Positions 5,059-63,987 of a DNA stretch of 64,000 bases are shown piece after piece (position 1 is the stretch's first letter; each line of letters begins with the position of its first letter). The stretch lies in assembly GCA_030272155.1 (NCBI GenBank), contig CP126196.1, forward strand, positions 5,332,501 to 5,396,500, in the 5' to 3' direction. The stretch is from Tetradesmus obliquus (lineage: Eukaryota; Chlorophyta; Chlorophyceae; Sphaeropleales; Scenedesmaceae). The translations under genes and the position numbers were made by a program. The notes beneath the pieces are model-generated. The model saw nothing but the letters and a program-made list of their open reading frames with translations, made no database searches and had not been told where the DNA came from.

Positions 5059-7350
5059 ATGAATGCAACAGAGCACAGTGGTGCTAGTGGCAGCAGCGGC
5101 TGGGTGCGCCGCAGCAGGACTGGCGGGCAGCAGCTGGTAGCGCCACTGCGTGTCGACCTGAGCGCGTGCAAGTACGAGCTGTGTGAGTGGCCGATGTGGC
5201 ACAGCAGGCACAGCATCTGCAGGCGATGTTGGTGTGGAGTCAAACGAATGCTTGCAGCACCTGCCGCGCGCCAGCTGCAGTAAGAGTAGTGCATGCGGCT
5301 TGCAGGGCTTGAGAACAGCAGGCAAGGACCACGCAAGTGTGCAGGAGGAGTGACAGCTCAGCATACACTGCGTGCAAGGCACAGCCATGCGACAACGCGG
5401 TGCAAGATACCCGCCTGCTGCTGCTGCTGCTGCTGCTGCTTCCTGCAGTGCGGCTGGTTGCTGCACAGCTGGGCTGGCAGGTGGTGCCCCCAGGCAGTGC
5501 TGACTGTCAGTGGGACCTGTTCTGGACTGACACCTCCATCAGCCAGGAGAGACTGCTGCGGCTGGCGCCCACACAGGTGCACATGCAGCAGCTGCAGCAG
5601 CAGCAGCAGCAGCAGCTGCAGCACTGCTGGCATGGCACTAACACTTATGTCTACAGCAGCACCAGCGGCAGCAGTTGCTGGCGGATCATGGTGGTGGTTG
5701 CAGATGCCGGGTGTAGCGTAATCGCTTCGCTTTGCCGTCTGCTTGCAGGAGCAGCGCAGCATCGGCATTCATAGTATATATAGTATAGCTTGCAGGAGAT
5801 GCAGCAGTTGCAGTTGATAGGTTGCAGCACATGCAGCGGTAGCAGTTGACAGGTTGCAGGACATGCAGCGGTAGCAGTTGACAGGTTGCAGGACATGCAG
5901 CGGTAGCAGTTGACAGGTTGCAGGACATGCAGCAGTAGCACTGGGCGGCCTGCACGGCAGTGCAGTAACGACGCTTGACAGCTGCAGCACTGCTCATGCG
6001 AGCTTGCCGAACCTCCCCCTGCAAGATTGTGATGTTGACCTGCGTTCACTCCCCTCCCCTTGCAGCGCATCAACCACTTCCATGGCATGCGGATATGCTC
6101 CCCTGGTGCTGACGCTCTGTGTTGCACACCTCTTGTCTTGCAATACTCTGCTGCTGCCCTGCCACACACATGTGCCGCTCGTCGCCACCTGCAGCGCATC
6201 AACCACTTCCATGGCATGCTGGAGCTGTGCCGCAAGCGCTCCATGGCACGGCTGCTGGCAGGCCTAGCAGCAGCAGCGCCGCCCGGCTGCAGCTTTAATT
6301 TCTTCCCGCCCACCTGGCAGCTGCCCAACCAGCTGGGCGAGTTCCTGGCAGCGGCGTGCGCAGCAGGCAGGAAGGCCACGTTCATAGTGAAGCCTGACGC
6401 GGGCTGCCAGGTGAGGCCACGTTCATAGTGAAGCCTGACGCGGGCTGCCAGGTGAGGACACGCTCATAGGAAAGCAGGATGCGCGCTGCCAGGTGAGGCC
6501 ACGTTCATAGTGAAGCCTGACGCGGGCTGCCAGGTGAGGCCACGTTCATAGGAAAGCAGGATGCGCGCTGCCAGGTGAGGCCACATTCATAGTGACGCCT
6601 GACGCGGGATGCCAGGTGAGGCCACATTCATAGTGACGCCTGACGCGGGCTGGCAGGTGAGGCCACATTCACAGTGACGCCTGACGCGGGCTGGCAGGTG
6701 AGGCCACATTCACAGTGACGCCTGACGCGGGCTGCCAGGTGAGGCCACATTCATAGGAAAGCAGGATGCGGGCTGCCAGGTGAGGCCACGTTCATAGTGA
6801 AGCCTGACGCGGGCTGCCAGGTGAGGACACGTTCATAGGAAAGCCTGACGTGTTCGTAGTGAAACTCTTGAAGCCTTGATGAGCCTTGAAGCCTGATACG
6901 TTCATAGAGAAGCCTGATGCGTTCGTGGTGACGCCTGATGCATTCATAATGAAGCAGGATGCGTGCTGCCAGGTGAGGCCACGTTTGCAGTGAAGCCTGA
7001 CGCGGGATGCCAGATGAGGCGGCTGGCAGGAAGCTGCAGCGGCAGCTGCAGCTACAGTATGCTTAGTATGCTGCTGCTCGTCTGATACGTGAGCTTGCCT
7101 GCACATGCAGAGGTCGGTGGATTGCAATTGTCAGCAGCAGCGAGCGCCTGTTGCGTGAGGTGCCGCTGCTACGCTGATCCTGCCCTGCTGCGTGCCCTGC
7201 TGCTGATCCCTCCTGCAGGGCAAGGGCATCAGGCTGCTGCAGGGCGGCAGCGAGGCGGCCGTGCTGCGCAACCTTGCAGGAATGGCCACACTGCAGGCAG
7301 TGGCGCAGGCGTACATCCCGCAACCCCTGCTGGTGAGCTGCTCCAGCACT

Positions 7351-7381
<31 letters not shown>

Positions 7382-7544: not shown

Positions 7545-7598
<54 letters not shown>

Positions 7599-7993: not shown

Positions 7994-8029
<36 letters not shown>

Positions 8030-8260: not shown

Positions 8261-8306
<46 letters not shown>

Positions 8307-11300
8307 CAGGCCAGGTGGTGGCGAGTCGGCCAGCAAGTGGAGCTTCAGCCAGCTGCGGCAGCACCTGGAGAGCCAAGGTGGGCAGCAGCAGAGCGGTGTG
8401 TGTAGTAGTTAGATTGCTGCTGTAGCGCAGCGCATGTATGCGTTTCACCCTGACGCTACCTGCCAAGGTTGGCAGCAGCAGAGCAGTTTCTTGAGTAACA
8501 GCTCACACACAACCCGAAGAAGCAGGATGGGCTGCTCTGGCTTCCAGCAGCCTAGCCACAGTCGGTGACAGTTAGCATCAGAATACCACTGTGTTGGCAG
8601 CACATTACCACTGATTGATGCAGGAGCAGTGCTCTGCCAGAGCAAGCGGCTTGCCTTCAGTGCCGCCTGCAACACTGTATCCGGTTGCTCCTGCTGCCTG
8701 TGCCTTCAGGCCACTCCTGGGCTGGCCTGTGGTCCTCCTTCAGTCAGCTGGTCGTCAAGTCTCTTGCAGCAGCTGCCCCGCACCTGGCTGCCACATACCG
8801 CACAACAGTCGTCAGCAGCGGCAGCAGCGCAGCAGCCAGCAGAACAGCCAACCCTGGCAGTAGCAGCAGCAGCCAGCCAGGCAGCGAGGCTGCTCCTGCA
8901 CCTGTGTCCAGCGCTGCTGTGGCTGCCGGCTGCTGCCGCTGCTTCGAGGTACTTGGTGATGACGCCGTGCTGCTGGATGCTGCAGCCTGACAAGGGCAAC
9001 TTGTTGTAATTGACCTGCCGCGCTTTCAACAGCCGAACCTAGCCGTCGTTGCAGGATATTTTACACGTGTTAGGCTCCACTTCAACTGCTGCCTGGGTCG
9101 CTGGCAACAACTTGTACTTGCGTGTTTAAAGTTTCTCATTTGCACTTGGTCGCACAGGTGCTGGGCTATGACGTGCTGCTGGATGCTGGGCTGCAGCCGT
9201 GGCTGGTGGAGGTCAACCACTCGCCCAGCTTCAACATCGACTCGCCACTGGACAGGGCCATCAAGACGGCGCTGATCGTGGACGCAGTGCGGCTGGTGAG
9301 GAGGGGGCAGGCTGACTGGCAGGGCATAGCTGCATGCTGCTAGCACCGCTGTCTGTTCCGCTGGGCCAGTCCGTCAAGCAGGCGCTGATCGTGGACACAG
9401 TGCGGCTGGTGAGGCACAGCAATGCGTATGGCAGCTGCTGAATGGTAGGAGTTCTGAAGGCGCATGGGGTATCCTCATCGTCACACACCTCCTCCCTTAA
9501 CTTACGCGGGTGGCGACTTTTAACACACCACGCGTAGCTCATTCATTCAGTCATTCATGGCAGCTGCTAAAGTACCTCGCACAATGAACATCCTTCATTC
9601 ATCCACCTTATGGACCACCTGCGCGCACACGGCTGCTGCACATAGCACCAGGCAGGGCAAACCTGCATGCTGCCAGCACCGCCACCTGAGTTTAACTTTG
9701 GCAGGCACCTGAGAGCCCCTGCCATGTCGTGCTGTGTGTGTGCGCTGTGCAACAGCTGCGCATCGAGCCGGGATCCATCGCTGCTGCCAAGCAGGCCGCC
9801 CACAAAGCGACTCAGGTGAGCAGACGGCGCAGGGGCAGCAGTTGGCATAATGTGTCGGGTGCCTACAGCACCGGTATCAAACACCGTCGTGTGCTGGGAA
9901 CAGATCGTGCCGCATACATTATTGTGTGTAGCTACTGCTGTGAGTCAATGTGGCCATAACTGCTGTCCTCAGCTATGATGTACCATGCAAACCCACAGCA
10001 TGTCCAGCTGCCGATAGCACCAACTATAATGGTTTGTTTATTGCCTGCAGGCGCGCCTCATAGCGCCGCCGCCAGCGCGTGGCAGCAGCAGCAGCAGCAG
10101 CAGCAGCGCTGCCGGCGGCCTCACCAGCTGCGCAAGCAGTGCCGATGCAAAGGCAGCACAGCAGGCGCACAGGTGAGGCCCAGCTGGCAGCATTTGGGCA
10201 CAGCTACTGTTGACTCTCGGACAACGTTGCGCTGTTGGGTTACAGACAATGCATGTTGACACAGGCAGCCAGAATGCACTTCGCATTGGGGCACAGCTGC
10301 ATCAATCTGCGCTGTCGGACTCTGCATTGGCAAACAGCGCTGAACCGTTGCGGCACCAGTGTCTGATGCTTGCCGTCTTCTGCCTGCTGTTCCATCCCCA
10401 CAGGAATGCGCTCATCGCAGCCAGGGACAAGTGGCAGGACCGGCACCTGGGCAACTTTGAGCGCATCTACCCAGTGCCACTGCCAGGCCAGCATGCAGGC
10501 AGCAGCAAGGCAGCGGCAGCAGCAGCAGCAGCTGCCGTCAGTCCTGCCAAGCTTGCCGAGCTGCAGCAGCTGCAGCAGACATACGACCAGCTGCTGGCAG
10601 CGTCGCAGCAGCTGCACAGCCAGCAGCAGCAGCAGCAGGCGCAGCAGCCGCGGCTGCAGCAGCAGCAGACAGCTGCAAGGTCGCCTGTGCGCAGCAGGAG
10701 CCAGGTGACTAGGGGCCAGCAGCAGCAGCAGCAGCTGTCTGGCTCGAAGCAGCAGCAGTCGCCTGGCCAGCAGCCAGATAGGTTGGTTCGTCACACCGTA
10801 CAAAACACAGCAGATCAGGCACTGCGGCAGCAACAGGAAAGCGCACAGGATGCTGCACAACCTCCTGCCGCACCACTGCATGCTGACAGTGAGGATGAGG
10901 AGCAAGGCCGCACCAGGGGACAGCAGCTCAATGACACTTCAGACACCGTAGAGCAGCGTGTAACTGTTGAGTCAGCGCTGGCTCTGCTGTCGGCTGCACT
11001 GGCCAGCTCAGATGTGCAGCGCCAGCAGCGCTCGCGCCCTGCCTTAGCAGCCAGCAGCCAGCAAGCAAGGAGAGCTGCATGCAGCCCGGCCAGGCCCCAA
11101 TCAGCCAATGCGGCAGGCAGCAGCCGCTGCGGCAGCAGCATGGCCAGGCTGCAGAGTGCAGAGCTGTGCCAGATGTTCAAGCGCAACACAACAGCAGGCT
11201 CGCTGCAGCAGGTGGCACAGGCAAGCAGTTTGCTGCACGTCCCAGGGAGTGACACCAGCAGCAGCAGCAGCAGCGGCAGCAGCTCTAGCCGCAGCGACAA

Positions 11301-12168: not shown

Positions 12169-12219
<51 letters not shown>

Positions 12220-14675: not shown

Positions 14676-17426
14676 TGCATCTTTTTGAGAGGGGGGAGCA
14701 CCTGGATGCTGCTGCTGCCAATATGCAGAATGCTGCGCAGCTTGCTGCAGCTCTGGCAGCAGCTGCATCGCCGGCAGCTCCAGCAGAGTGTCTGTGCATG
14801 GCGGCAGCTCTGCGCTGTCTGCTGTTGGTAAAAGAATGGTAGCAGCGCATTAGACACAGTCTCTACAGTTGTTGACGGTGCCACAATCATTCGTGGCTAT
14901 TGTTGCTTGGCAGCCGTCACACAGAAGTTCCGGCAGCAAGGTTGCCAGTTAGCGGCCAGGTTACTCTAGGGCGTGTGTGCGTGTCAGCGTATGTGTTTGA
15001 CTGCTGCCACAGTATCCGTGTTGTACGCATAGTGGTTGACATGAGTTGTAGCCGATGACAGTGCATTCCCCTGTGCTACACTGCTGCTGGCTGGCTACTG
15101 CAGCTCCGCAGTGCAGCCTGTTGCTGTTGTATGCTTGGCATGCTTCAACTGGTGCGGATTTGGCCCTGCAATGCTAGGCAGTTGGTGATTTCCAGCGGCG
15201 CTATGTGATTATTACTTCAGTGTCCAAGGTGTGTGGGTGTGTATGCAGGTCTCTTGCATTGTGTTTCCTTGCGTCAGCGCTGGCTTGTAATGCCGGTTGG
15301 GCATGTTGGATGTGCAGTGCCAATACTCCTCTTGAAATGGCGCTCCGTGGAAGCATTGTGCTGCGGTGGCCTTGTGTGTGCTCATGTCAGTGAAGAATAT
15401 CCGCGCTGACGATGGTTGGTGCGTGGTGTGCAGGTTGGGTCAGGCTGGGTTCAGAAGCAGAAGAGTTGGTTTCAGCAGGCGCAGTTTCCACACGCCTTTG
15501 CTGCGTTGATGCAATCACAGCTGGCAGGGCATGACAAAACAGCAGCTGCTGATGCCCCAGCCGAAACAGCTGGGACAGCATGATTTGCGTCTCTGGCAGT
15601 GCAAATTTGTTGATTGTGGCGGTGGATTATCATACAAGGCAGCCAAAGAGACTAACAGATATGCATCAGTAACGCACCGAATCATAACAAGGTGTTGTGC
15701 AGTTGCATCTGTTGGTGATGCGTCATTCGAACACGCTGTAGTAACGCAAGCAGCTTGTGGTTGTAGGTGTGCGTGTTTGAACAGCAGCAGTTGCAGCCAG
15801 GAACATCAGTGTTGCGCAATCTGCATGGCTGCCTCTCACTGGTGTCGGGTTATACTCAAATCAGACAGCTGGTGACACTATGCATGCATCAATCTCAGGG
15901 CGGATGGTGGTCAGAAAGCAGAAGGAGATGACTCGCTGGACCGCCAGTGGCGTGTGAAGCACAGAGTGGTGCTGCTGTGCTGTGTGTCGTGTTGGAGATG
16001 GAAGCATCAATGTTGGTGGCAGAACAGAGAAGTTGGTGATGAAGGTGCTGAAGGTGGTGGTGATTCCCCCATGCTTGCAGGACAGCAGTAGCTGTATCAA
16101 AGAGGTGCCGGCCGTGCTGCGCCAGCGATCCGAGCTTGCAGATGCTGCCGATTGTTTGGTGTGTTGGCTGGGCCGTGCTGCTGTTGCTGTCGCTCTGGCC
16201 AGCTGGCAGCAGTGCGCAATGCATGCAGCAGTGGATTGATTGATTGTACCTGGTGTTTATTATGCATGCTGCGGGCGTGCTACCCTGCCCCACTGGCAGG
16301 CTGCATGATTGATGTTTCTTCAGGTGCACGTTGTTCTTTGCACTGCTTGTGCTGCTGAGCAGCACCGTGTGCTCAACTCGAGCCATGGCAGCAGCTACAA
16401 CAGCCGCTCAGTAGAGCTGTGAACACTGGTCACTGAACAGTGCATCAGCACCTGATCATCGCTTGGTGCCAACTGGCGATGCCCTGACTTTGAGTCTGCA
16501 GCAGATTGGCATGCTGTTACTTGAAGCATCCTGCCGGCAGCTGCCGGCGCTTGCGCTGTTTGGAACTTAAGAGAACAGTGTCTCTGTCTAAACACTGCCT
16601 TGCAATGCATACCAGCCAGTGAACATCGCCATGCATTGCGGCAACAGCGTTCAGTGTGTTGTATCACGCGCTGGCAAAGCATCAGCCAGCCCCCTGGCCT
16701 GACGCAATTTATAACTCATGTCAGCAGCGATAGCAGTGGAGCAGAAGCACAGCAGGCCAAGCGCAAGCTGTCCACAAGGCTGGCTTGTGGCTGTATTGCC
16801 TGGCGTGAGTGATTGGAGTTTTGCTTGGCATGTGCGTTGGTCCTCGTGTCGAGTTTGCTGATGTGTGGTTGCAGACCCAGCGCGCACAGTGCAGCTCATC
16901 TGTCGGCAACTGTCGAGTGTGATTTGAAACATTGAAGGGACAGTGGCACGCAGCAGCAGGCCTGCTACACTTCCCTGGAGCTTGCAAATGCTGGCCAAAG
17001 CAGCTGTATATTTCCCAGCAGCTGCATGTTGTAGGTGTGTTGTTTAATTGTGTTGTTTAGGTATGCATGTGCTACTTGTTGTTCACCAGCGTTCAGAGCC
17101 ACCTGTATCACTCCGCGTACTGCAATTGCTGCTGGCTGCTGGCAAGGTTTATGTGTTTGTGGGACACCAGCTGCTGCTGCTGATAGCTTGAGCCTGTAAC
17201 GCATGCAGGCACGCATGGACCAGCTGTGGCCCTGTGCTGATGCCACCACATTTCATTCATCGAGCTTTGTTGTGATGGCTAGTGTTACAGCTAGTTTCTG
17301 AAGTTTACTAGTTTCTGACACACGCATGCGCATGTTGGCAAGGCTGGCTCCTGACTGCAGTATCCAGACCTGGCCTGAGCAAAACTGTCGGCACTTGCCA
17401 AGGGCCGCTGTGGTACGTGTGTGAAG
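14676..17426. other. Intergenic, no gene recognised
   Basis: TG-rich, somewhat lower GC, with only short frames lacking motifs. The TGTAA at 15286 may end the preceding gene's transcript. Confidence 0.4.
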
Positions 17427-18070
17427 TCAATGCATGCTGGCTGCACCAAGCTGCAGCTGCGGATTGTTGGACTTGAATGGATGCTGGCTGCACCAAGCAG
17501 CAGCCACAGTTTGTTGGACATGTTCCAGGTCAATGCATGCTGGCTGTACCAAGCTGCAGCTGCGGATTGTTGGACATGAATGGATGCTGGCTGCACCAAG
17601 CTGCAGCCACAGTTTGTTGGCCATGTTTCAGGTCAACGCATGCTGGCTGCACCAAGCTGCAGCTGCGGATTGTTGAACATGAATCGATGCTGGCTGCACC
17701 AAGCTGCAGCTACGGATTGTTTGACATGAACAGATGCTGGCTGCACCAAGCTGCAGCTACGCATTGTTGGACATGAATGGATGCTGGCTGCACCTAGCTG
17801 CAGCCACGGTTTGTTTGACATGTCCCAGGTCAACGCATGCTGGCTGCACCAAGCTGCAGCCACGGTTTGTTGGCCATGTCCCAGGTCAACGCATGCTGGC
17901 TGCACCAAGCTGCAGCCACGGTTTGTTGGCCATGTCCAAGGTTAGCGCATGCTGGCTGCACCAAGCTGCAGCCACGGTGTGTTGGCCAAGTTCCAGGTCA
18001 ACGCATGCTGGCTGCACCTAGCTGCAGCCACGGTTTGTTGGACATGTCCCAGGTCAACGCATGACGGCTG
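17427..18070. repeat. Minisatellite with alternating 47- and 56-bp units, 12 copies
   Basis: Twelve copies carry the core TGCTGGCTGCACCAAGCTGC, spaced 47 bp (links with ATGAATGGA) or 56 bp (links with CAGGTCAACGC). The 5' half mixes both; the 3' part is uniformly 56 bp. Both strands show spurious Cys/His/Gln-rich frames, so it is treated as non-coding. Confidence 0.95.
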
Positions 18071-19770
18071 CAGCTTTGCTGCCAGTGATACACTGCGCTT
18101 GCATCGCCTGTCAGTGGTCTAGTTATACTGTTGGCTTGTGATGGCTTGCTTGTGCCTCAGCCTTCTCTTTTGGGAGCGGTTGAATGGCCAGGTTACACAC
18201 AGCGCCAATTACTACATGTATCATAACAGACTTCTGTCAGTTTCATTGTGTGCACTGCTACTGTAGCAGTGCTACAGCTACAGCATGTTGGGTTTGAGTA
18301 CAGGAAACGGCATCAGAGCTTCCTGTGTGCACGCCTGCCAGGCAGTGCTGTCAAGTGTCAGCCTGTGGCAGTGCACCACTGGGTACAGCTGTTCATGACA
18401 GTGTTATGCTGAGTCAGCGTAACAGTTGCAGCTGAAATTTACGGTTATGCCATGAGCTGGCAGCAGTACAGTATAGTGGGTGAAAAAAGACGACATGCTG
18501 CAACGCTGTGTTTGAGCGTGAGCAGACGGTGTGGTATTTGAAGCCACAAGGTAACAAGACCCAGTGCTGCACATGGTCACGATTTGTGTGTTGCACGAAG
18601 GGAACGCACCCCCTGTTCGGGCCAATGACAGCCTGAGGCGCATTGGGCAATCACCAACACCCACCCTAACCTGGTGTTTGTGGCTGCTGCACCTGCAGCA
18701 CCTGCAGGTGCAGCTGCTGTACCAAGAATACCACCAGAACACTGATGCCTTTCAAACCACAGCTGAGCTCAGCAGCCGGCGCTCTTTGTAACAATGGCCA
18801 AAAGCCAAGCCCAACACCACAGCACTAGTCAGTGACAAGCAAGGATTGCCGACGGATTGGCATTTCACAGACGCGTGGTGGATCTCCCGATCATGGCATG
18901 TTATGGATGAGTAGATACTCAAAGAAGAAACATAGGTCAAGCGGCAAGCATGAGACACCTTGTGAAGGTATGGCTGTCATCAGTGGAGTATCATGGAAAC
19001 TTGCTGGCGCAGGCAAGATTGCGCCGTGACAAAACTGGGCCCACAAAAGGGGCTGCACTTGCAAGTACATCTGTGTGTGAAGGTGGCAACTGCCAGCAGA
19101 GGAAATCATTGCCATGATGGCGTGATGTGGCAGGACCTGAATCAATTGGTCACCAGCCAGATGGCGATGGGAGCAACCATGTGCTGCATGCATGCAATGC
19201 TGCTAGCAGCAAGCGACTGACCCGGGGCAATAACCAACTTGACAATTGCGTAAACATGCAGCTACAACAACACTGCAACTTGGAGATGGTGATGAAGGAA
19301 GAGCAAACCTAGTCTGCTATGCATGGACGTGCACAGCATGCAACACAACAATGCTGACTGAGATACATTGAAGAAGTGTGGGTCGCTTTGCTGAAAGGAA
19401 AGAACAAAGCAGCTCCAAAAATGCATCATAGTAGGGGGAAAAACAGGCATCGGACCATAACAGTGCGATTTTAATCAAGGCAGTGTCTGTGTACGGCGCA
19501 GATCCTCAGTGGGCGCGGGACTGTCACGTGACAGGCATGATTGCAGCCTACACCATCACCTTGTGAACACAGCGCCTGCTACCAGAGTGACCTCGAGCAG
19601 GCACGCAACCACAAGTAAACTGCAAAGCTCGTAGCCACGAGGAGTTGATGGAAGGGAAGCAGCCAGACGGTTAATCATTGATGTGAAGCTGGCAAGGCTG
19701 CCTTGCAGCAACACATTCAGACGGAAGCAGCCGGGGCGCAGCGCCCCCTGCACCTGTTCCAATGCACGCC
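18071..19770. other. Intergenic between minisatellite and chitinase 3' end
   Basis: No gene recognised. The part near 19770 should hold the 3' UTR of the minus-strand chitinase. Confidence 0.4.
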
Positions 19771-21124
19771 TCAGTTGCATTTGCCGTAGCCCTGCTGGCA
19801 TCCGCTGCCGCAGTGGTCAGCGCTGCTACCACACCAGCCTCCGGCCGAGCAGCAGTTCCCAATGGAGCAGCAGAAGCCGCCCTGGCTGCTGCCGCAGCGG
19901 CCGTTAGGGTTGATGCCTGCGCAGCCTGCTGGCAGGGGTGTGCCGCTGCAGCTGCCGTAGCCGGCCTGGCAGCCGAGGCTGGTGTCACAGTAGGAGGAGC
20001 CCGTGCCGCAGAACCTGGTGCAGCAGCAGCAGCAGCAGCAGCAGTAGCAGCAGCAGCAGCGGCAGCGGCAGCAGCAGGATAAGCAATAGTAAAGAAACAA
20101 TAGTAAAGAGCGGCAGCGGCAGCGGCAGGATAAGCAATAGTAAAGAAGCAATAGTAAAGAAGCAATAGTAAAGAAGCAATAGTAAAGAAAAAGTAAAGAA
20201 AAAGAAAAAACATTTAAGTTGGGGTACACGTTGCTTGAAAGCCAAAAGCTCATCTCAGCTGCGTCAACAGTGTTATGTTACTACAGCGACATCCTGCAAG
20301 ACATCCAAACATCAACGTTGGCAGCATTATTGGCATTCTGCACAAACATAAAGATGGCAGAAGTCATGCTGTGCTGTCAGGCACACCCAGCTGGCACAGC
20401 ATCCCCCGGGTTTCATGCACTCACCCGTACATGCTGCAGCATTGGCCTGCATGGCAGCAGTAGAGTTGCAGCATGCAGTGTGAGCAGCAGAACGTTGAAA
20501 CTGCATAGGTCTCGCCATGGCATCAGCATGTGGCCCAAAGCAGCATGCACTTTGCACCATGTAACGCCTCATCACACAGGGCACACACGCAGACATGGCG
20601 TCCAGCCCCACTGTTGTAAGTGTCCTGCTAATGTACCAACCCAGCCCAGCAGCTGCACAGCAGCAGTACATGCACACACACACACTAAATGGGCAGCACA
20701 TTGCATACATGCAGCGGCAATGTCAGGCCCTACCATGGACAGTACAATCCTGGTGGACTAATTAAAAATATAATCTTGCACTAGCACAGCCGCATGTACA
20801 CGCACCTGCTGGGCAGCAGATGCCCAGGCCTTGCCAGGCCCCGCAGCCAGAGCCAGCCGTACCGCCAGGACAGCCGGGCTGTGGGCTGCTGCCAGGCTGG
20901 CTCAAGTTGCCGCAGATCCGCTGCCCGCTAAACGGCAAGTCTGCCTCACATCCGGCCATGCCATACACATTACAGGCGGCCTGCATGATCTGCCGGGGGT
21001 TGGGGCAGCCTGTGGACAGCTGCAGGGACCACAGCATGATGCCAAACTGGCTGCCGGCTGCCTGCTGCTGCGCGTAGGCAGCGCGCTCCTGCACCTCGGG
21101 CAGGGTCAGCACATGGTTGCCCCT

Positions 21125-21198
<74 letters not shown>

Positions 21199-21491
21199 GT
21201 CAGCACATGGGTGGCCCTGCTGCAGCACTAAGGCAGCAGTGGGACCAGCAGCAGCACTATGCAGCAATGTTGTTGCACCAGGCAGGCCACAGCAGGCCTC
21301 CATTGGTGCGATTACAAGCACAATCACCGCAGAGGGCTGCAGCTCACCAGGCAGAGCATCACAGCAGTCAGGAGTGAGTTACTGTGCAGCTCCTGCAAGC
21401 AGCACGCCGCTCAGCTGCCAGTCGCAAGCTGGCCCACATGCGCACATCTCCCTGCCGCAGCAGCACCACTCAGCCATCGCTGACGTCTGCT

Positions 21492-21526
<35 letters not shown>

Positions 21527-21770
21527 CGCTCGCTCACTCACCAGACCTCGGGTGGCACCATGATGCCAATTGCTACAGCTTGGCTCCTCCATATAGCCTT
21601 GTGGGCGCGGTACGCCTCGCGCCAATCAAAGCCAGACGTAGACACGTCGCCTGCAGCATGGCCAGCGCGGCACACCAGCAGATGGATTTCGCCACCGCTT
21701 GTCAACCGCAAATGATGCAGCGCATTTGACCGCAGATGATGCAGTGAGGATCAAGCCGGCATAGACAACT

Positions 21771-21807
<37 letters not shown>

Positions 21808-22636
21808 TATATTCCTTGTTTTTGGCTCGGAACTGCTGCCTCCCTACATACCTATGAGGTAGGCCATGATGGTGACCAAGTCCAGCCCTGCTGGCGCCAC
21901 TGGCAGCAGTGCTGTGTTTATCCGGCACAATGGGTGCAGCAGCTGCATCGTGCAACAAGGAGAAACTGCTGCCTCCGTACCTATGAGGTAGGCCATGATA
22001 GTCACCAGGTCCAGAGCCTGCCCTGCTGCTGACCGTGCTATGGCCAAGCCCTGGCCCTTGCTGCTGCTCCAGGTGGGCTGTGCATTGGCAAACACACCCT
22101 CCCCATACAAGCTGGTGGCCCCAGTGGCAGTGGCCAGGATGTAGCGGCCGGCCGGGAATGCGGCACGCAGCGCAGCTGCTACTGCCACCATCTCTGCATC
22201 TGTGGTGCACGAGACTTTGCCGGCAGCTGCTGTGCAGCTGGTTTGGACCTCATAGTCTATGTCAACGCCTGTGCAGCCGATAAGATAGGAGCAGCAGGGG
22301 CAGCCGGGGCAGCTTAAACGTACGAAACAAGGCTGCTAGTTGCTGTGCGGACACCGTTTTGGCGGCAAGCTGCATGCAGGGGGCTTAAGTACAACATGGA
22401 GGTTTGCGATGTACAGCAGTGTACAGCAGCTGCATGCGAAGCATGTGAGTGCTGGGTAGCACCCATATGCAATTGCCGCGGGTACTGCCAGCGCCAACAG
22501 TGCAGCACAGCTGCAGCGCACTACTTGCACCACCGCAGGGATCCAGAAGCTACTGCTGCTGCTGCTGGTGCTGTCAGCTGCTGCTGCAACTGTGTTCTGC
22601 TGCTGTCTGCCGCTGTCCGCTGCTGCTGTCGGGCGC

Positions 22637-22667
<31 letters not shown>

Positions 22668-22791
22668 CACCGTCTAGCCCTAGGTCCGCCACCAGTGCTG
22701 CCAGGTACAGCAAGTGCTAGCGCTCGACATCCAGATCAGGATACACACAGCAGCCATATGCAATCACTGGAGGAGTGCAGGACGCTGCTGC

Positions 22792-22846
<55 letters not shown>

Positions 22847-45488: not shown

Positions 45489-45534
<46 letters not shown>

Positions 45535-46935: not shown

Positions 46936-48551
46936 TATCTGCCATGAACTGCTCTGCAGCTGCTGCTTCAGTCACTGCCGCCAGCGCAACCGCCTGCTGC
47001 ACCGCTGCCACTGCCTCCACTGACTTGGCCTCTTCCCGCTGATGCTCAGCGCTGAACTGCTGCTGCTGCTGCTGCCACAGCTCCCGGCTGCCCTCCACCA
47101 TCTCCAGCTGCTGCTCCAGCTGCTGCAGCCGCACGTAGCGCGCCCGGTGCAGCAGCGACACAGGGCGCGCTGCTGCTGCCACAACACGCTCCACCTGGCG
47201 GGGTAGTGCAGCGGCAGGCAGGCAGCAGGCAGCAGGCAAGCCACAAGCCATGTGAGGCAGTGACTGTGCTTGCCGCACACATACAGGGTGGCTGTGCTTG
47301 CACACTAACACAGCGCGCGGTGCAGCAGCGACACAGAGCGCGCTGCTGCTGCAACGACACGCTCCACCTGGGAGGGAAGTGGACAGCAGGGGCAGCAGGC
47401 AGTCGAGGGATCATGAGAGACAGTGGCTGTGATGCAGTGGCATCAGGTGCTGCAGGAGCAGAGTCCCAACACACCCACCCACCAGCTTGTTGGCCCTCGC
47501 CCAGCCTCAGCGCAGCTGCCTGTGCTAGCGTGCTGCAGCACTCACTCAGGCTGATGCAAATTAACTCCCCAACTGTACACCATCTCCCCGCAGCCCCTGC
47601 CTGCACCCCAGCTCAGCTCAATGTCAGCCGCGTCCCTCTCCTGCGGCAGCGCCCGCCCGCAGTTGTGCCATCGTGGTTGCTGCAGAATGTGGTTGCTGAT
47701 GATCCTGCAGCGAAACCTGCGCGCCCTTGGCGCCTGCCAAGCCTAACGTTAGCTGGCTCTGCCTACGCCAGCCAGCCGCAGCACACACTGACGCCAGCCA
47801 CCTCACACGCACTCCCCTGGCTCCCCCCGCCCACATCATTGTCCGCCACGTCCCGCTCCTGTGTCAGCCCGCCAGCAAATCCCAATGCAACACTCCCCGC
47901 AGGCCTCGTGACGCCCACCCCCCACCTCATTGTCCGCCACGTCCCGCTCCTGCAGCAGCGCCCGCCACGCCATCAGCGGCGCCCCATCGCACACCTTGTC
48001 AGCCCTTGGCGCCTGCCACGCCAATAGCCTGCGCAGCACTGCATGCCATGCTGCACCCCTCCCTCCCCTGCACCCCACCCCATTGTCATTGTGTGTCTCA
48101 TACCATCTAAGATGGTGCCAGGACCCACATGTAACTATCTACTCTCATTGTCCGCCAGCCACGCAATCACTGATGATCCTGCAGCGAAACCTGCGCGCCC
48201 TTGGCGCCTGCCAAGCCTTACCTCAGCTGCCCCTGCCTACGCCAGCCAGACGCAGCACACACTGACGCCAGCACACATCCCTCCCCTGCCCCCCACCTCA
48301 TTGTCCGCCACGTCCCGCTCCTGCAGCAGCGCCCGCCACGCCATAAGCGGCGCCAGCGCGCCGTCGCAGTACGCCACGGCAGCGCTGCGCGGCGTGAGCA
48401 GCGGCGTGATGGCCAGGGGCCGCGGGTACAGCCCTGCGGTCATGGAGGCGTGCACGCCGCCCATTGAAAGCCCGCAGATGCCTCGCTGTGTGACGCCCTC
48501 CGCCTCCAGCCAGCCCAGCAGGCACAGGCTCTCGTAGATGGTGGCCCTGGC

Positions 48552-48596: not shown

Positions 48597-48657
48597 GCAG
48601 CATTGATGGATCCAGCCAGCCCAGCAGGCACAGGCTCTCGTAGGTGGCGGCCCTGGC

Positions 48658-48725
<68 letters not shown>

Positions 48726-53628: not shown

Positions 53629-53662
<34 letters not shown>

Positions 53663-55323: not shown

Positions 55324-58300
55324 ATGGGCAGCAGCAGCACCTTCAGCTGGCCCTACTTCTACCAGTACCCTCCGTACTTCACGTAAGCAGCACCCTGGTT
55401 TGCATCTGCTGCTATCAGACAATGCAGCTGATCATCTGCTTGTAGGCAGACCACAACAAAAGGAAAACCCTCGCAGCACTCCCATGCAGGCTCCGTGCCG
55501 CTGCTGCTAAACTAGTTCAGAAGCGCAGATGCTTGATGCACACCCCAGCTTGCTTCCTGCTGGTCTTGCTGCTGCAGGCGCCAGCCAGTGAAGGAGACAG
55601 CAGACAGGCAGAGCAGCCTGTGGGGCAGCCTCATCCTGGCCTACTGCAAGCATCACAAGGTAGGCCACATGCAGCGCAGCACAACACACCCTCAGAGCTG
55701 CTGCAGCAGAGCAATGCCGTGTCTGTCCGCAGCGGCCTGAGCAGTCGACTTCAGCAATGGCCGCTGCATGGCAGGCACATTAATGATGCAAAGGTGCAGC
55801 GGGTGGGCCATGTGGACATCTGTGCAGCAGACCCTGCCCTCATAGCTGCTGCTCCAGAGCAATGCTGTGTCTTCTGCAGCGGCCCGAGCAGCTGACTAGC
55901 AGTGGCCGCTGCATGGCAGGCACATTAATCAAGGCCAGGTGCAGCTGGTTGGCCACGTGGACATCTGTGCAGCACACCCCACCCTTAGAGCTGCTGCTTC
56001 AATGCCGTGTCTTTCTGCAGCGGCCTGAGCAACCGACTTAGCAATGGCCACTACATGGCAAGCACACTGTCAATGCCATTTGCAGCGCTGTAGACTGTCA
56101 GCAAGGCATGCACTGCTGCCCCGACTGTTAGCAGGCTGCAAAGAGGTTTGCCCATCTGCTTCCTGCGCCTGCTGCCTGCGTCTGCTGCCTGCCTCTGCTG
56201 CCTGTACCTGCTGCCTGCTGTTGCTGTGCCAGCTGTACGTGCTGTCTCCCTCTGAGGACATCCCGCTCTGGGTGAACAAGGATATCAACCGTGAGGGCCT
56301 GAGGAAGCAAGCGCTTGCTATTATGAAGCACCAGCAACTGCATTTGACTGGCCAGCAACATCACAGTGTGGCACATGCTGCTGTTGTCAAAGTGGTTGGC
56401 GTACTTGTTGCTTGGGTGTTGCCTTTGTTGCAGCTTGTGACAGAAATCATATGCGCTGATCCTACATGTGTTGCTGCAGGGATTGTAACCTGGTGCTGCG
56501 CCGCTGCTGCTGCTGCTGCCATGCAGGCCGGCTTGCTCCTGAGGCTGCTGTATCTTTCCTAGACGACCTCGTAGCAGCAGGTGAGGAGGCCCCTTTGGGT
56601 TCAAGTCTAGCGGCAGCGCTGCAAGTTTACTGCAGCAGCCGCGTCGTGCACAGACACGTCACAGCAGCTGCACCCGAGCCGTCTGCTTCAGCACAATGTG
56701 CATGAGATTATGCATGCAGCGGCAGTTGCTGTCTTTGTGTGGGCTGTGTTGGCCGCCTCTGGCTGTCACCAGCCCACTGCCGCTGTGCCGTGCTGCAGGC
56801 TCTGTTGTGTGGCTGGATGGCAGCTTTAAGCTGCATGAAAGCCCATGTGTCGGGTGCTGCACATATTTACCGTGCTCGATGTTGTAAACTCACCTGGCCT
56901 GCTGCCATGCCGTGCTGCAGACTCTGTTGTGTGTCTGGATGGCGCCTCGGAGCTGCGCGGCAGCTGACTCACTGCGCAGAGTGTACATGTTTTGGTGTTT
57001 GCACCTGTGCCCAGCGGCAGTCGCTGTGTTTGATGTTGGGGACCACATGTGTCATGTATACATCGTGCCGTGCTGCAGACTCCGCCTTGTGGCTGGATGA
57101 CGGCGCCAAGCTGCTAATAGCCCAATGTGTCGGCTGTTGCACATATGTACCGTGTGCGATGTTGCATTTTCACCTGCCTCGCTGCCATGCCGCGCTGCAG
57201 ACTCTGTTGTGTGGGTGGGTGGCGGCGCCAAGCAGCATGAAAGCCCTCTCGCTGAGCATGCTGTGTATGTGTTGGCTGTTGACAATATGTGCCCAGCGGC
57301 AGTTGTCTTGTTTCATTCAGGGGATCTCATCCGGCCTCCTGCCATCTCTCCCTGCCATCTCATCCGGTTCCCTACCATGCTGTGCTGCAGGCTCCGCACT
57401 GTGGCTGGATGGCGGCGCCAAGCCGCTAAAAGCCAGTTGGCTGTTGCGCATACATACTGTTCGATGTACATATACCGTGTCTGATGTTGACTTACCTGGC
57501 CTGCTGCCCTGCTGTGCTGCAGGCTCCGCACTGTGGCTGGATGGCGGCGCCAAGGCGCGCTGCCTGGTGCTGTGGCGGCGGCTGCCTGATGTGGCCGCAG
57601 CCATCGCCAGCTGGGCCGCCAGCTACGGCATGGCTGACAGCGTCATGCTGCTGGATGAGCTGGCAGCAGGGCCCGAGGTGGCTGGCACAGGTGCGGGTGT
57701 GCGTGTGTCGTGTTTGTGTTTGTGTTTATGTGTTTATGTGCGTGTGTGTCTGTGCAGCTGCGGCTGCAGGTGGCAGGCACAGGTGCAGCGGCTGCGGCAG
57801 GTGGCAGGCACAGCTGCAGGTGATACCTCCTACACGCTCAGCATAAAGCGTGTGGCACGGTCTGTTGTGAATGTGCAACATGGCTGACAGCGTCGTGCTG
57901 CTGGATGAGCTGGCGACAGGGCCCGAGGTGGCAGGCACAGTTGTGGCGGCTGCAGCTGCAGGCGGTGCCGGCAGCATGCGCGCCTGCAGCGAGGCATGGC
58001 ATGTGAGCAGCTGGCTCCTGGCGGTGACACGGAAGAGGCAAGGTGCTTAATTGTCGCATTTGTGTGCCCGCCTGCCTGCCTGCCTGCCTGCCTTTTGGGC
58101 TGGCTGGCTGCCTGCCTTGCTGCGTAGTTCCCTTCCCACCCGATTACCTGCCTGCCTGCCTGCCTGGCCTGTCCTGCTGTGGAGAGCTGCAGGGGCTGCC
58201 TACCTTACCTGCCTGCCTGGCTGCCTGGCTGCTTGGCTGCCTACCTGACTGTTTTGTCTGCCTGCTTGCCTGCTCAACTGCCTACCTACATGCCTGCCTG

Positions 58301-58376
58301 CCTGCCTGCCTGCCTGGCTGGCTGGCTGCCTACCTGCCTGCCTGCCTGCCTGCCTGCCTACCTGCCTGCCTGTATG

Positions 58377-58465
<89 letters not shown>

Positions 58466-58556
58466 ATGCCTGCCTACCCGACTGCCTGCTCAACTGCCTA
58501 CCTGCCAGCCTGCCTGCCTGGCTGGCTGGCTGCCTACCTGCCTGCCTGCCTGCCTA

Positions 58557-58589
<33 letters not shown>

Positions 58590-59180
58590 ATGCCTGCCTA
58601 CCCGACTGCCTACCCAACTGCCTACCTACATGCCTGCCTGCCTGCCTGTGTGCAGAGTTGGAGGGGCTGCACCGGGAGGTGCTGCTGCGGGCACTGCAGC
58701 TGCTGGAGGCACAGGGCAAAGTCAAGTGAGTGGCAGGGCTGGCCCACACACTGTCACATGTCTACCATCTGGTGCGTCACAGTCCATGCTGCAGCAGAGT
58801 GTTGCTGTTGCTCATCCTGCTGTCTGCCTACTGCTCTGGGCAGATGTGCAGCTGATGCAGCCAGTGCAGTTTGAGGGGCAGCTGGCAGCAGCAGCCTGCA
58901 GCGTGTGTTGTGGTAGTGTGCATTGTGGATGGAGTGCTGCCGGAAGCGAGCTGGGCACAGCTTGTGCGCATAACTATGCAGCTGTGGACACTTAGCTCAC
59001 ATGTAAACATGATTCACCACACTCGACATGTTGTTGACACAGTGGTTGCATTTGCAGGTAAGTATTGAGCGCAGTAGATGACCAACACAAGTCACCTGCT
59101 GTGCTTCCTATATGTTTGGCATTGTTTACAGGCTGTTCAAGGGAGCCACTCCAGAGGAGGAGGGAGTTAAGTTTCTGTGA
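55324..59180 (+). CDS. VPS25: VPS25, ESCRT-II subunit
   Basis: Seven exons in matching phase: 55324-55382, 55578-55659, 56233-56290, 56527-56580, 57523-57690, 58656-58725, 59132-59180 (TGA); 179 residues, the normal VPS25 size. Landmarks: WPYFYQYPPYFT at the N-terminus (the PPXY-like ESCRT-II contact), LWGSLILAYCKHHK, LSPSEDIPLWVNKDINRRLA, PEAAVSFLDDLVAAG, SALWLDGGAKARCLVLWRR, ELEGLHREVLLRALQLLEAQ and a GVKFL terminus. Two winged-helix domains are expected. VPS25 binds VPS22/VPS36 and recruits ESCRT-III during sorting of ubiquitinated membrane cargo into multivesicular bodies. Coding exons total 540 bases in a 3.9-kb gene. Intron 4 carries five copies of the exon 5 start, intron 5 holds a large CCTG expansion, and the stop codon opens a 29-bp array. 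Confidence 0.95.
55715..56090 (+). repeat. ~140-bp repeat, three degenerate copies, in VPS25 intron 2
   Basis: GCAGCGGCCTGAGCAG onwards with GGCACATTAAT and GTGGACATCTGTGCAGCA blocks recurs at about 55729, 55878 and 56018. Each copy includes a TCYGCAG acceptor-like site. Confidence 0.85.
56789..57440 (+). repeat. Five copies of the VPS25 exon 5 start with acceptor
   Basis: AG dinucleotides at 56797, 56919, 57077, 57199 and 57389 are each preceded by GTGCTGC or CGCTGC and followed by sequence like GCTCCGCACTGTGGCTGGAT. The copy at 57391 is identical to the true exon start at 57523 for about 32 bases. Confidence 0.95.
57878..57950 (+). repeat. Copy of VPS25 exon 5 end
   Basis: ATGGCTGACAGCGTCRTGCT and the following GGATGAGCTGGC...GAGGTGGC...GCACAG repeat 57629-57690, in intron 5. 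Confidence 0.9.
58065..58650 (+). repeat. (CCTG)n expansion in VPS25 intron 5
   Basis: Some 590 bases of GCCT/CCTG tetranucleotide with CTAC, GGCT and TATG interruptions, ending just before the exon 6 acceptor TGTGCAG. It produces long Leu/Pro/Ala/Cys frames on plus and Gly/Arg/Gln/Ala frames on minus, none of them genes. Confidence 0.97.
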
Positions 59181-59640
59181 GGCAGCAGCCAGCTGAGAAG
59201 TTCCTGTCAGGCAGCAGCCAGCTTTGAAGCTCCTGTGAGGCAGCAGCCAGCTGAGAAGTTCCTGTGAGCCAGCAGCCAGCTTTGAAGTTCCTGTGAGGCA
59301 GCAGCCAGCTTTGAAGTTCCTGTGAGGCAGCAGCCAGCTTTGAAACTCCTGTGAGGCAGCAGCCAGCTTTGAAGTTCCTGTGAGGCAGCAGCCAGCTTTG
59401 AAGTTCCTGTGAGGCAGCAGCCAGCTGAGAAGTTCCTGTGAGGCAGCAGCCAGCTGTGAAGTTCTTGTGAGGCAGCAGCCAGCTTTGAAGTTCCTGCGAG
59501 GCAGCAGCCAGCTGAGAAGTTCCCTGCGAGGCAGCAGCCAGCTGAGAAGTTCCCTGCAAGGCAGCAGCCAGCTTTGAAGTTCCTGCGAGGCAGCAGCCAG
59601 CTGAGAAATTCCTGTGCAGCAGCAGCCAGCTGAGAAATCT
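59171..59640 (+). repeat. 29-bp tandem array starting at the VPS25 stop codon
   Basis: About 16 units of 29 bp (GTTCCTGTGAGGCAGCAGCC then AGCTTTGAA or AGCTGAGAA). The first unit is the last coding bases GTTTCTGTGA of VPS25, so the array grew from the coding end into the 3' UTR. Confidence 0.95.
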
Positions 59641-60619: not shown

Positions 60620-63600
60620 ATGGCCCTGTTCCGTGCCAGCGAGCAGCTGCTGGCGAGCAGCGCGCGCAAGGCTGCACCATGGCTGCAAAGTGGGATCCAA
60701 ATCTTACAACGTGGGCTTTCAGCACAAGCTGAGCCCGCAGAAGACGAGGATTCCGGTATGTGGTTAGCAGTGACAGGTCCGGTTAGCATCAACGCAGCGG
60801 CTGCCGATCTCGAGCTTCTGCTTCACGATACAGCTACTGCTGATAGCCTGTGTGCGTTGCGCCAGCGCTTGCCGCCATGCGCCACGTCGCATCCCGCTGG
60901 TGCTGTCCACAGCAGCACATGGCAGCATACAACCCAGCATGGGTCACATCACGACGTGTGTGCCCAGAATTTGCTGCAATCGGCTTATGTATGCAGGTGC
61001 AATTGAGATGAAGGGCATCAGGCTGCGTGGTGCTCCCATGTACCTGGACATGCAGGCCACTACGCCCATGGACCCTCGCGTGCTGGATGCCATGCTGCCC
61101 TACATGGTGGACCAGGTGGGCCAGCTGTGGCTGCTTGGCGGGTGTTGCTGTAGCAATGCAGTTCACGCAGCAGCAGCAGCTGCAGCAGCAGCAGCTGCAG
61201 CAGCAGCAGCAGCAGCAAGGCAGGAGCAGCAGCGCAGCAGCAGCAGCAGCAGCAGCAGCTCAGCAGCGTAAGCGGCAGCAGGGCAGCAGCGGCGGCAGCA
61301 GCACAGCAGCAGGAAATGCTGCGCAGTAGGAAAAGTGGTGCAGCAGCAAAAGCGGCGCAGCAGTGAAAGTGGCGCAGCAGTGAAAGCGGCGCAGCAGCGA
61401 AAAGCGGCGCAGCAGCATAAGCGGCGCAGCAGTGATTGCAGCTACAGCAGTGGCAGCGGCAGCAGGGACAGGCAGCAGCAGCGACGGCAGCAGCAGCAGC
61501 CCAGCACAACAGCAGTTGCGGCAGGGGCAAGCAGCGGCAGAAGCTGCAGCAACAGCTGACGCACACAGAACATGTAGCTTGCTGCATTGTCAATAACCTA
61601 TAGAGCAAGTTTGACTTTTAGTGTGCTTCGTTTTCTTTGCATCCTGGCGCGCTACACACAACAACAGCAATGACAGCCGTGACAGTTGCGGACATATGGT
61701 AGAAGCCAAGGTCTTCTTTGCCGCTTGGCTGCATCACCAGGCTGTCATTGCTGTTTTGCTGTCAACACAGCTATGCAAGCAGCTTGCGCCGCCCATGCTT
61801 CTGCTTCTGCTGCTTGACAGTGACACTGCTGGCTTGTCCTGCTGCTTGCAGTTTGGCAACCCCCATTCGCGCACCCACCTGTATGGCTGGGAGAGTGAGA
61901 ACGCAGTGGAGAAGGCCAGGCAGCAGGTGAGAGTGAGATGATGCAGTGCTGAAGGCCAGGCAGCAGGTGTGAAGGAAAATATGCAGTGCAGAACGCCAGG
62001 CGGCAGATGAGAAAGAGAACATGCAATGCAGAACGCCAGGCAGCAGGTGTGAGGGAGAAAATGCAATGCAGAACGGCAGGCAGCAGGTGACAAGAGAGAG
62101 AATGCAGTGCAGAAGGCAAGGCCAGGCAGCAGGTGCGAGTGAGAGAGCAGTGCAGAAAGGCCAGGCAGCAGGTGGGGCGGTGCATTCACACCGGCAGGTC
62201 AACTGCGTCTGCATTTAAACCAGCGCATCACCTGCCTCTGCACTCAAATGCAGGCCGCTAGCCTGGTAGGCGCCGACCCCCCAGGAGATGATCTTTACCA
62301 GCAAGTAAACTGCCCCTGCGTTCAAACCAGCTAATAATCTGCCCCTGCATTCAAATTCAGCCGCCTTTTGCGTTCATGTAACCGCAGGTCGCCAGCCTCA
62401 TTGGCGCCGACCCCAAGGAGATCATCTTCACCAGCGGCGCCACTGAAAGCAACAACATGGCCATCAAGGGCGTGGCAAACTTCTACAAGGACAAGAAGCG
62501 CCACATCGTCACCAGCCAGACAGAGCACAAGTGTGTGCTGGACAGCGCGCGGTGAGTGGCAGGGTTTCTGTTACGGCTGTGCTGTTACGGCTGTGCTGCC
62601 ACAGATTGCTTTGAAGTTTGGGCAGATGGCAGCTGCTCTGACGGATGCTCGTTGTGTTTTTGCGTTCTTGCGCCAGCTGGGGCGGTGCAGGCGCGGGGCA
62701 GTGCTGTCACTGCACTGCGCCAGGCACGCGCAAAACAGGCAGCTCTCAACCACCGCTGCCCGCCAACTGTTGACAGGTACCTGCAGCAGCGTGGCTGGGA
62801 CGTGACGTACCTGCCTGTCCGCAGCGACGGCCGCATCGACTTGGGGCAGCTGGCGGATGCGCTGCGGCCAGACACAGCGCTGGTGTCCATCATGGCAGTC
62901 AACAACGAGATCGGCGTGCGGCAGCCGCTGGCGGAGATCGGCGCGCTGTGCAGGGAGCGCAAGGTGTTCTTCCACACAGACGCGGCCCAGGTGGGCTGCG
63001 GCGATGCATTGCAGCGCAGGAACGGGACTCGTTTCTTTTCGTTGCTGGCGCAGTACTGGGCCACTAGTGTGAATATTTTGTTGTGTGTCGCGCAATGGAT
63101 CTGCATTGGCTGGTTTTGCCGGTTGTTTTTTTTTACTAATGTATGGGAGTGGCATCGCGGGCATGGTGAGGAGGTTTGGTGTGTCGGTGTGCTGCTTTTT
63201 GCATGGGCGCGCTGAGTCGCTTGAGGTCTGCTCGGCCCTCACTTCAATGCTGCGGCTGCTTTCAATGTCTTCGCCCCCGCAGGCTGTTGGCAAGGTGCCA
63301 GTTGACACTTCTTTTCCACGCCCATCCCTAGTTGCAGCCGCTGTGCACTTGTGAGCTTTGCCCCTGGCTGCGCCCAGTAAACCCAAGCCTGCTGGCTCCT
63401 CACCATGTTGCGGCTTACTTCATGCAGGCTGTGGGCAAGGTGCCTGTTGACACCTCCTCCACGCCCATCGACCTCATGTCCATCAGCGGCCACAAACTGT
63501 ACGGCCCGAAGGGCGTCGGGGCGCTGTACGTGCGGCGCAGGTGCGGGGCGGTGCAATGCTGTCAGCTGCAGCCCGCTTCTGCTGCTGCTGCTGCTGCAGC

Positions 63601-63987
63601 CGGTTAACGTGAAGGGCATTTGCTGGATGCAGGAGGGCGCACGCCTGGCTGCTCTTTCCAGGTTGACTCATGTTCACCTTCTTTAAAGCATGTGCCATCA
63701 CACCACTTGCCCTTGCATCATGTTACGAGTGCTTGATCATTCATCAGCGCGTGTCACTTGCTTGATAAACAACTGCCATTGATCGCGGCCTTCATCATAC
63801 ACGGCTGCTTGTTCTGCTGCTGTGCATATGGCAGGCCGCGCGTGCGCCTGGAGGCACAGATGTCAGGCGGAGGCCAGGAGCGCGGCCTGCGCAGCGGCAC
63901 CGTTCCCACAGCAGCAGTGGTTGGCCTGGGCGCAGCCTGCGAAATAGCAGCACAGGAAATGGCAGCAGACCATGCGCACATCTGCAA
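60620..63987 (+). CDS. NFS1: Mitochondrial cysteine desulfurase NFS1 (3' end beyond window)
   Basis: Seven exons in phase: 60620-60755, 60997-61115, 61852-61926, 62388-62551, 62777-62990, 63428-63540, 63835-63987, then a donor GTGAGC; about 324 residues so far. The N-terminus [20 protein letters not shown] is Arg/Ser-rich, fitting a mitochondrial presequence. Family blocks: [103 protein letters not shown] with the PLP lysine at K259, and [19 protein letters not shown]1 releases sulfur from cysteine for Fe-S cluster building on ISCU. The mobile-loop catalytic Cys and the C-terminus lie outside the window. Mitochondrial rather than plastid NFS2 is called because the sequence is IscS-like (group I). 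Confidence 0.95.
61158..61440 (+). repeat. CAG/GCGCAGCAG repeat field in NFS1 intron 2
   Basis: Starts as (CAG)n after the exon 2 donor and passes into repeats of GCGCAGCAGTGAAAG at 61334-61435. The frames it opens are spurious. Confidence 0.85.
61927..62175 (+). repeat. About six copies of NFS1 exon 3 end with donor
   Basis: GAANGCCAGGCAGCAGGTG recurs about every 38-48 bases (near 61950, 61992, 62033, 62073, 62118, 62157), interleaved with ATGCAGTGCAGAA. This copies AAGGCCAGGCAGCAG/GTGAG at the exon 3 end. Confidence 0.92.
62252..62312 (+). repeat. Copy of NFS1 exon 4 start with acceptor
   Basis: GCAG then GGCGCCGACCCC and GGAGATGATCTTTACCAGC parallel the true exon 4 start at 62388. Confidence 0.88.
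63279..63332 (+). repeat. Copy of NFS1 exon 6 start with acceptor
   Basis: CCGCAGGCTGTTGGCAAGGT and GTTGACACTTC...CCACGCCCATC repeat the real exon 6 start at 63428 with few changes. The copy then loses the frame, so the downstream acceptor is the functional one. Confidence 0.92.

Follow-up and report, generated by a model that had tools for sequence, protein, structure and literature searches.

The window analyzed here is a 64,000-nucleotide stretch of contig 6 of the Tetradesmus obliquus genome (104.7 Mb in 17 contigs), with a G+C content of 0.53 to 0.64 per 2 kb. Five genes had been named in it from the sequence, and four of the names are supported by protein alignment or family matches. 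The spliced NFS1 protein aligned without a gap over 266 residues to a solved cysteine desulfurase (8tvt), so its exon joins are sound, and a profile search of the window returned family matches for TTLL (positions 6186 to 6410), VPS25, and ABHD18. The fifth name, chitinase, is weakly supported: the gene (19700 to 26400, minus strand) had a weak chitin-recognition match below the cut-off, and no Glyco_hydro_18 match was listed within the window.

Exon-edge copies in the window

The original prediction counted at least 17 places in these genes where an intron holds a copy of a neighboring exon edge together with its splice site. The copies are real and were understated: there are 39 at 14 junctions, 29 of them found by alignment (13 junctions) and 10 in a ladder of 41-base units at a TTLL donor. 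For the alignments, the 60 exon bases nearest each junction, together with the splice motif, were compared with the adjoining 400 to 1,000 bases. The 13 junctions were taken from a self-alignment and chosen because copies were already visible there, and fixed stretches were searched, with intron limits worked out for NFS1 alone. The aligned copies comprise 15 of an exon end with its donor (donor type) and 14 of an exon start with its acceptor (acceptor type). Every one outscored all 63 foreign exon edges aligned to the same stretch; GT was retained in 12 of the 15 donor-type copies and AG in all 14 acceptor-type copies.

The TTLL exon-end ladder at 6410 (6373 to 6850, plus strand) is the most regular case in the window. 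The exon ends in ...KATFIVKPDAGCQ, with GTGAGG at 6410/6411, and CAGGTGAGG occurs at 11 places at a constant interval of 41 bases, once at the exon end itself and 10 times after it. Farther along the plus strand, TTLL has a copy of the exon start with first base 9158 (8947 to 8982; score, 35, against a foreign-edge maximum of 28) and a copy of the exon end with last base 9295 plus its donor (9358 to 9414; score, 69; identity, 0.84). A complex 47- to 103-base array at 17426 to 18072 has no exon edge assigned to it.

On the minus strand, the chitinase-like gene has one copy of the exon end with last base 21981 plus donor (21849 to 21885; score, 59), two copies of the exon end with last base 24741 plus donor between 24375 and 24679 (24632 to 24679, score 86; 24375 to 24414, score 33), and a copy of the exon start with first base 24884 (25038 to 25080; score, 66). 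ABHD18, also on the minus strand, has an acceptor ladder of four copies of the exon start with first base 44914 (45077 to 45572), the farthest just 18 bases long; a donor ladder of three copies of the exon end with last base 48297 (47614 to 47983), with GT in two and a best score of 127 at an identity of 0.98; and a copy of the exon start with first base 48546 (48611 to 48664; score, 98).

The remaining two genes lie on the plus strand. In VPS25, edge alignment found an acceptor ladder of five copies of the exon start with first base 57523 (56787 to 57426), and two copies of the exon end with last base 57690 lie between 57768 and 57946, the second with TT instead of GT. The VPS25 region also holds a 584-base TGCC array (58065 to 58648; period, 4; ∼144 copies). 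In NFS1, the end of the exon at 61852 to 61926, whose joins were checked by protein alignment, is copied six times head to tail at ∼40-base intervals (61943 to 62174) within the intron at 61927 to 62387, with the donor GT present in five. Copies of an exon start with its acceptor lie at 62250 to 62302 (first base, 62388; score, 57) and at 63279 to 63326 (first base, 63428; score, 63). All introns of this gene were tested, and two of the five contained copies.

By eye, an array of ∼16 units of 29 bases (59169 to 59636, plus strand) appears to begin at the last VPS25 codons and stop, running from Lys-Phe-Leu-stop into the 3' untranslated region; the VPS25 family match ends at 57686. If this placement is right, its first boundary would be the one used at the VPS25 stop codon too.

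Exon-edge copies in other genes

We sampled further genes by locating exons through family matches to CCT chaperonins, class-I tRNA synthetases, and kinesins, and fetched 23 regions. The matches were chained, and introns were called between them on the basis of reading frame, phase, and splice-site scores. Of 69 anchor pairs, six were discarded because their splice sites scored poorly, leaving 63 introns in 20 regions. The called introns have the consensus CAG|GTG(A/C)G at the donor and TGCAG|G at the acceptor. Their mean length is 468 bases; the published T. obliquus genome has 107.7 Mb, a G+C content of 57%, and introns averaging 462 bases (PMC5966456).

Outside the window, 77 copies (43 donor type and 34 acceptor type, up to eight per intron) were found in 27 of the 63 called introns, with at least one copy in 12 of the 20 regions. 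Introns with copies numbered 16 of 25 in the CCT genes, 8 of 18 in the synthetases, and 3 of 20 in the kinesins. The first two families were fetched regardless of copies and together had copies in 24 of 43 introns: every listed CCT locus was taken, two single-match synthetase loci were omitted, and overlapping matches noticed before fetching did not guide the choice of loci. The kinesin count is biased both ways because, of the five main-set regions drawn from more than 30 loci, one (L057) was picked for a visible ladder and the other four for compactness. Kinesin introns were mostly short with few copies; three additional kinesin regions had copies in one of nine introns, two of the nine having weak sites.

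An intron's own edges scored at least 30 in 20 of 63 cases on the donor side and 19 of 63 on the acceptor side. Foreign edges reached this score in 10 and 13 of 3,734 pairs, respectively, with maxima of 54 and 57.

Placement of copies and intron length

The copies had been described as always lying next to their own exon in the same orientation. When each edge was searched against both strands of the whole locus (score of at least 40), 68 of 70 strong copies lay on the same strand within their own intron, and 69 of 70 had the same strand wherever they lay; a single copy on the opposite strand departs from the rule. This sole case, in the L041 intron at 3492, has a score of 57. The remaining strong copy, upstream of the supposed donor of locus L039, is by translation the true exon end. 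The L039 donor was placed at its corrected position for the copy counts, length fit, tile test, gap and codon rates, and spacer comparison. It stood at the inner copy for the analyses of segment order, length of the copied exon part, partner-site inspection, copy-copy identity, tree incompatibility, strong copies, and site strength, and for the counts of third-position differences, copy-unique changes, and repeats in copy-free introns.

A comparison of exon edges with exon interiors, suggested with the original prediction, was run on the sample and found copies commonest at the junction. Exon tiles of 30 bases recurred in the adjoining intron most often at the border itself (17 of 63 on the donor side and 16 of 63 on the acceptor side). 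On the donor side, each distance of 120 bases or more gave at most one such match; on the acceptor side, none was seen at 75 bases or more. Edges were absent from the intron on the wrong side, both for exon ends in the preceding intron (0/27) and for exon starts in the following one (0/27). The copied exon part has a median of 56 or 71 bases and a maximum of 164 bases (L039), which is also partial; the 27 exons bounded on both sides have a median length of 127.

Copies are arranged head to tail with regular spacing (median, 133; interquartile range, 120 to 150). Donor-type segments precede acceptor-type segments in all 12 introns having both; when junctions are extrapolated, 11 of 12 keep this order, and the exception is a 22-base fragment in L042. 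Across the 63 introns, length follows 290 plus 145 bases per copy (r = 0.85), and copy spacings total 10,570 bases against 11,561 bases of excess intron length. Copies were present in 0/15 introns shorter than 250 bases, 1/10 at 250 to 300, 0/7 at 300 to 350, 8/11 at 350 to 450, 7/9 at 450 to 700, and 11/11 above 700 bases. Most long introns in the sampled genes are long because of repeated exon-edge copies. Of the genome-wide lengthening process first envisaged, the occurrence in unrelated genes, the relation to length, and the strong-looking decoys stand, for the window and 20 sampled regions. Among the 36 introns without edge copies, no intron-intron repeats were found (BLAST score of at least 40, simple repeats masked). 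One of these introns (L053, at 1403) nonetheless has an exon-intron match, which went uncounted in the edge search.

Strength of copied splice sites

Site scores bear out the suggestion that the copies place strong-looking splice sites within introns. Computed before the L039 donor was corrected, the median donor score was 7.5 for copied sites, 7.5 for real sites, and -3.3 for other intronic GTs; the corresponding acceptor medians were 5.7, 7.3, and -1.1. Copied sites exceeded the tenth percentile of real sites in 32 of 42 donors and 24 of 34 acceptors, compared with 1.7% and 6.0% of other sites. Because the scores overlap, the motif alone cannot separate most copied sites from real ones, and, judged from these motifs, the splicing machinery presumably must somehow disregard many sites about as good as the real ones. 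Across the 63 introns, GT was kept in 39 of 43 donor-type copies and AG in 32 of 34 acceptor-type copies. Such retention need not indicate selection, since the exon part was preserved to a similar degree.

Divergence of copies and spacers

Identity to the real edge falls sharply at the splice motif. Donor-side identity is 0.89 over the last 20 exon bases; 0.91, 0.95, 0.91, 0.67, and 0.91 at intron bases 1 to 5; and 0.36 farther in. Acceptor-side identity is 0.86 in the exon and 0.49 past the motif. The same contrast appears between copies that are both intronic, where median identity of exon part versus spacer is 0.87 versus 0.62 for donor-type pairs and 0.91 versus 0.78 for acceptor-type pairs; an advantage of more than 0.1 for the exon part is seen in 29 of 43 donor pairs and 17 of 29 acceptor pairs, and no pair shows the reverse. 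For spacers within a ladder, 16 of 90 donor pairs and 31 of 63 acceptor pairs are related at z > 5, compared with 1 and 25 of 500 random pairs from different loci.

Among pairs with related spacers, difference rates at codon positions 1 and 2, at third positions, and in the spacer were 0.028, 0.211, and 0.178 for real-copy pairs and 0.070, 0.153, and 0.161 for copy-copy pairs. Relative to neutral expectation, change at positions 1 and 2 was 0.32 (0.15 to 0.60; 12 ladders) in real-copy pairs, for which roughly half the spacer rate is expected provided that the real exon is nearly invariant at these positions, and 0.44 (0.23 to 0.82; 8 ladders) in copy-copy pairs; these values come from few ladders, with copies found by their likeness to the exon. 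The pattern is uneven: the L041, L051, and L057 acceptor ladders and the L042 donor ladder look constrained, and two others, the L046 donor ladder and the L039 acceptor ladder, appear neutral. Third positions account for 107 of 155 donor-side and 107 of 163 acceptor-side real-copy differences, and changes unique to a copy fell at positions 1, 2, and 3 in 20, 27, and 47 cases. Near the junction, related-spacer pairs had no gaps in their exon parts and 2.2 to 2.6 per 100 sites in their spacers.

Some copies are mosaics, identical over 45 exon bases next to unrelated spacers (D3 and D4 in both L043 and L039). An L041 acceptor copy shows the reverse, with 1 of 44 spacer bases but 8 of 13 third positions different. 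Ten ladders have at least four copies; among their 116 pairs of informative sites, 59 were incompatible with a single tree, several of these ladders containing misaligned columns. Three well-aligned ladders showed incompatibility in 11 of 19 pairs, and none was seen in L042 (0/3) or the L057 acceptor ladder (0/1). Candidate causes of the coding-like evolution of the copies are selection on them, exchange among units, copying events of different age, and mixing of diverged haplotypes.

Paralogous and special ladders

A second ABHD18-like gene (L062; G000:C6:5638800-5643300), ∼260 kb away and partly deleted, has edge copies of its own. It apparently lacks the central exon (family positions 155 to 232). 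Compared with the window gene, it lacks one 49-base duplication, has an extra exon-end copy, and has fewer clear acceptor copies. Because the paralogs differ in their copies, copies come and go within the time of paralog divergence (16 to 20%).

The minus-strand kinesin L057 (G000:C2:7430300-7435300) has a six-copy acceptor ladder in which all six spacings are multiples of three and the frame is open. Going by this frame, the ladder may be partly coding and translated.

Discussion

The best explanation of these ladders, to which we give a probability of roughly 0.55, is tolerated tandem duplication across exon-intron borders together with turnover of the resulting arrays. Short tandem duplications, with a unit mostly of 120 to 150 bases and sometimes of 40, would arise in genes, and those within exons would be purged by selection. 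Duplications crossing a border would be tolerated and survive because the 5'-most donor and the 3'-most acceptor could still yield the normal mRNA, with the copies landing in the intron. Each copy, judged by eye, is a half-exon with one splice site, and splicing that recognizes whole exons would be expected to skip it because the other site is missing. Once two units are present, further duplication, loss, and exchange between similar exon parts would build ladders, so that intron length would rise in steps.

Joins at the outermost sites gave the gap-free NFS1 protein and a CCT-theta protein without a gap at the join, and in the CCT-delta translation the outermost copy is continuous with the exon. 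We count in favor of the duplication model the fit between copy number and length, the segment order, the related spacers, the mosaics, the tree conflicts, the differences between paralogs, and the stop-codon array, a single case that, if correctly placed, argues for a general tolerance of border-crossing duplications. Against plain duplication and decay stand the identity drop at splice motifs and the contrast between exon part and spacer in copy-copy pairs. Exchange alone would not simply produce the reduced change at codon positions 1 and 2, and the complete lack of intron-intron repeats in the 36 copy-free introns looks stricter than random duplication would give.

That the copies are instead functional is conceivable but unlikely. 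Their splice sites and exon sequence would then be under selection, for example as stations for nested or stepwise splicing or as regulated unproductive sites. Copied donors do score like real ones and acceptors nearly so, GT and AG are largely retained (39/43 and 32/34), exon parts near the junction are free of gaps and change less at positions 1 and 2, and copy-unique changes are synonymous in 53 cases and not in 60, when random change would give ∼27% synonymous. This synonymous excess, however, could have been inherited from the real exon if copying times differed, the retained GT and AG are not clearly better kept than the exon part, and neutral-looking ladders occur (L046 donor and L039 acceptor). 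Half-exons also have no evident path into a functional protein, and spacings are not confined to multiples of three (remainders of 0, 1, and 2 in 31, 25, and 21 of 77). The fuller version, in which introns are arrays of selected splice-site modules with purifying selection on exon sequence and motif, removed in nested steps so that the strong sites are part of normal splicing, we regard as quite unlikely. Other readings were rejected. In-frame protein repeats are ruled out for most copies by the spacings, with the L057 acceptor ladder as the exception. Cassette or mutually exclusive exons should carry a splice site at each end, but by eye a consistent AG is missing ahead of donor-type copies and a GT beyond acceptor-type ones, and for alternative exon ends we could conceive no frame-consistent route from these sequences.

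Ordinary tandem duplication followed by neutral decay, with the exon part recognizable for longer because the real exon is conserved, is also unlikely. Tandem order, regular spacing, the related spacers in part of the pairs, and the two neutral-looking ladders accord with it, but exon parts remain more alike than spacers even between two intronic copies; this contrast, the sharp drop at the splice motif, and the codon-position pattern lead us to reject whole-unit duplication with neutral decay as a full explanation. The same drop would follow if copies were made or refreshed from the exon by gene conversion or an RNA-templated process, possibly between diverged haplotypes, with ends at the splice site, and the identical exon parts beside unrelated spacers, with their reverse in L041, point the same way. 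We nevertheless consider this improbable: among related-spacer pairs, the rate of change at third positions is close to that of spacers (0.211 and 0.178), which frequent conversion should prevent, and no RNA route that would yield half-exons is known to us. An assembly error is very improbable, as is intron gain by AGGT duplication, the former because copies and spacers differ from one another and the latter because, common as AGGT is where exon ends are mostly CAG and intron starts mostly GTG, that model predicts the downstream exon start next to the donor and the upstream end last, when upstream-end copies lead in 12 of 12 introns with both.

The ladders are a concrete source of intron length, in steps of ∼140 bases per copied exon edge. 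They also offer a natural test of splice-site choice, in which real and copied sites of similar motif strength and the same exon context lie a few hundred bases apart in essential genes. The coding-like evolution of the copies, if upheld in a larger sample, contradicts simple neutral intron growth.

We found no account of exon-edge ladders in the literature searched (titles and abstract openings, with subscription journals mostly outside the search). The nearest published case found is the potato RdRp gene, where a single tandem duplication crossing an intron-exon boundary is described as having created a new intron (PMC4974935). There, too, the duplicated segment spans the border, splicing signals included; the ladders differ from that single event in occurring in many genes with up to eight copies per intron, in enlarging an existing intron, in their relation to length, and in leaving lasting strong decoy sites. 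Intron gain by local duplication, as generally outlined, likewise involves splice-like sites and leaves the mRNA unchanged, but in that model the intron corresponds to the stretch separating two exon copies, whereas here both exon edges are copied, in order, within an existing intron.

The dual-specific splice sites of polyubiquitin, as summarized in PMC10809524, similarly form a tandem array of equivalent sites in one gene. Its isoforms include variable numbers of coding units, whereas the units here are half-exons within an intron. Symmetrical stwintrons and introner-like elements (outlined in PMC8469720) share the presence of repeated sequence in introns but spread one sequence to many gene positions, whereas each copy here comes from its own exon; the copied edges are not common to the introns of unrelated genes (10/3,734 and 13/3,734) and have the head-to-tail order, regular spacing, and variable copy number of tandem arrays. 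Recursive splicing and exon definition, as described in outline (PMC6110457, PMC9225289), resemble the ladders in internal splice sites within introns and in the choice between competing sites. Unlike recursive splicing sites, the copies are extended exon edges rather than bare sites, known here from DNA.
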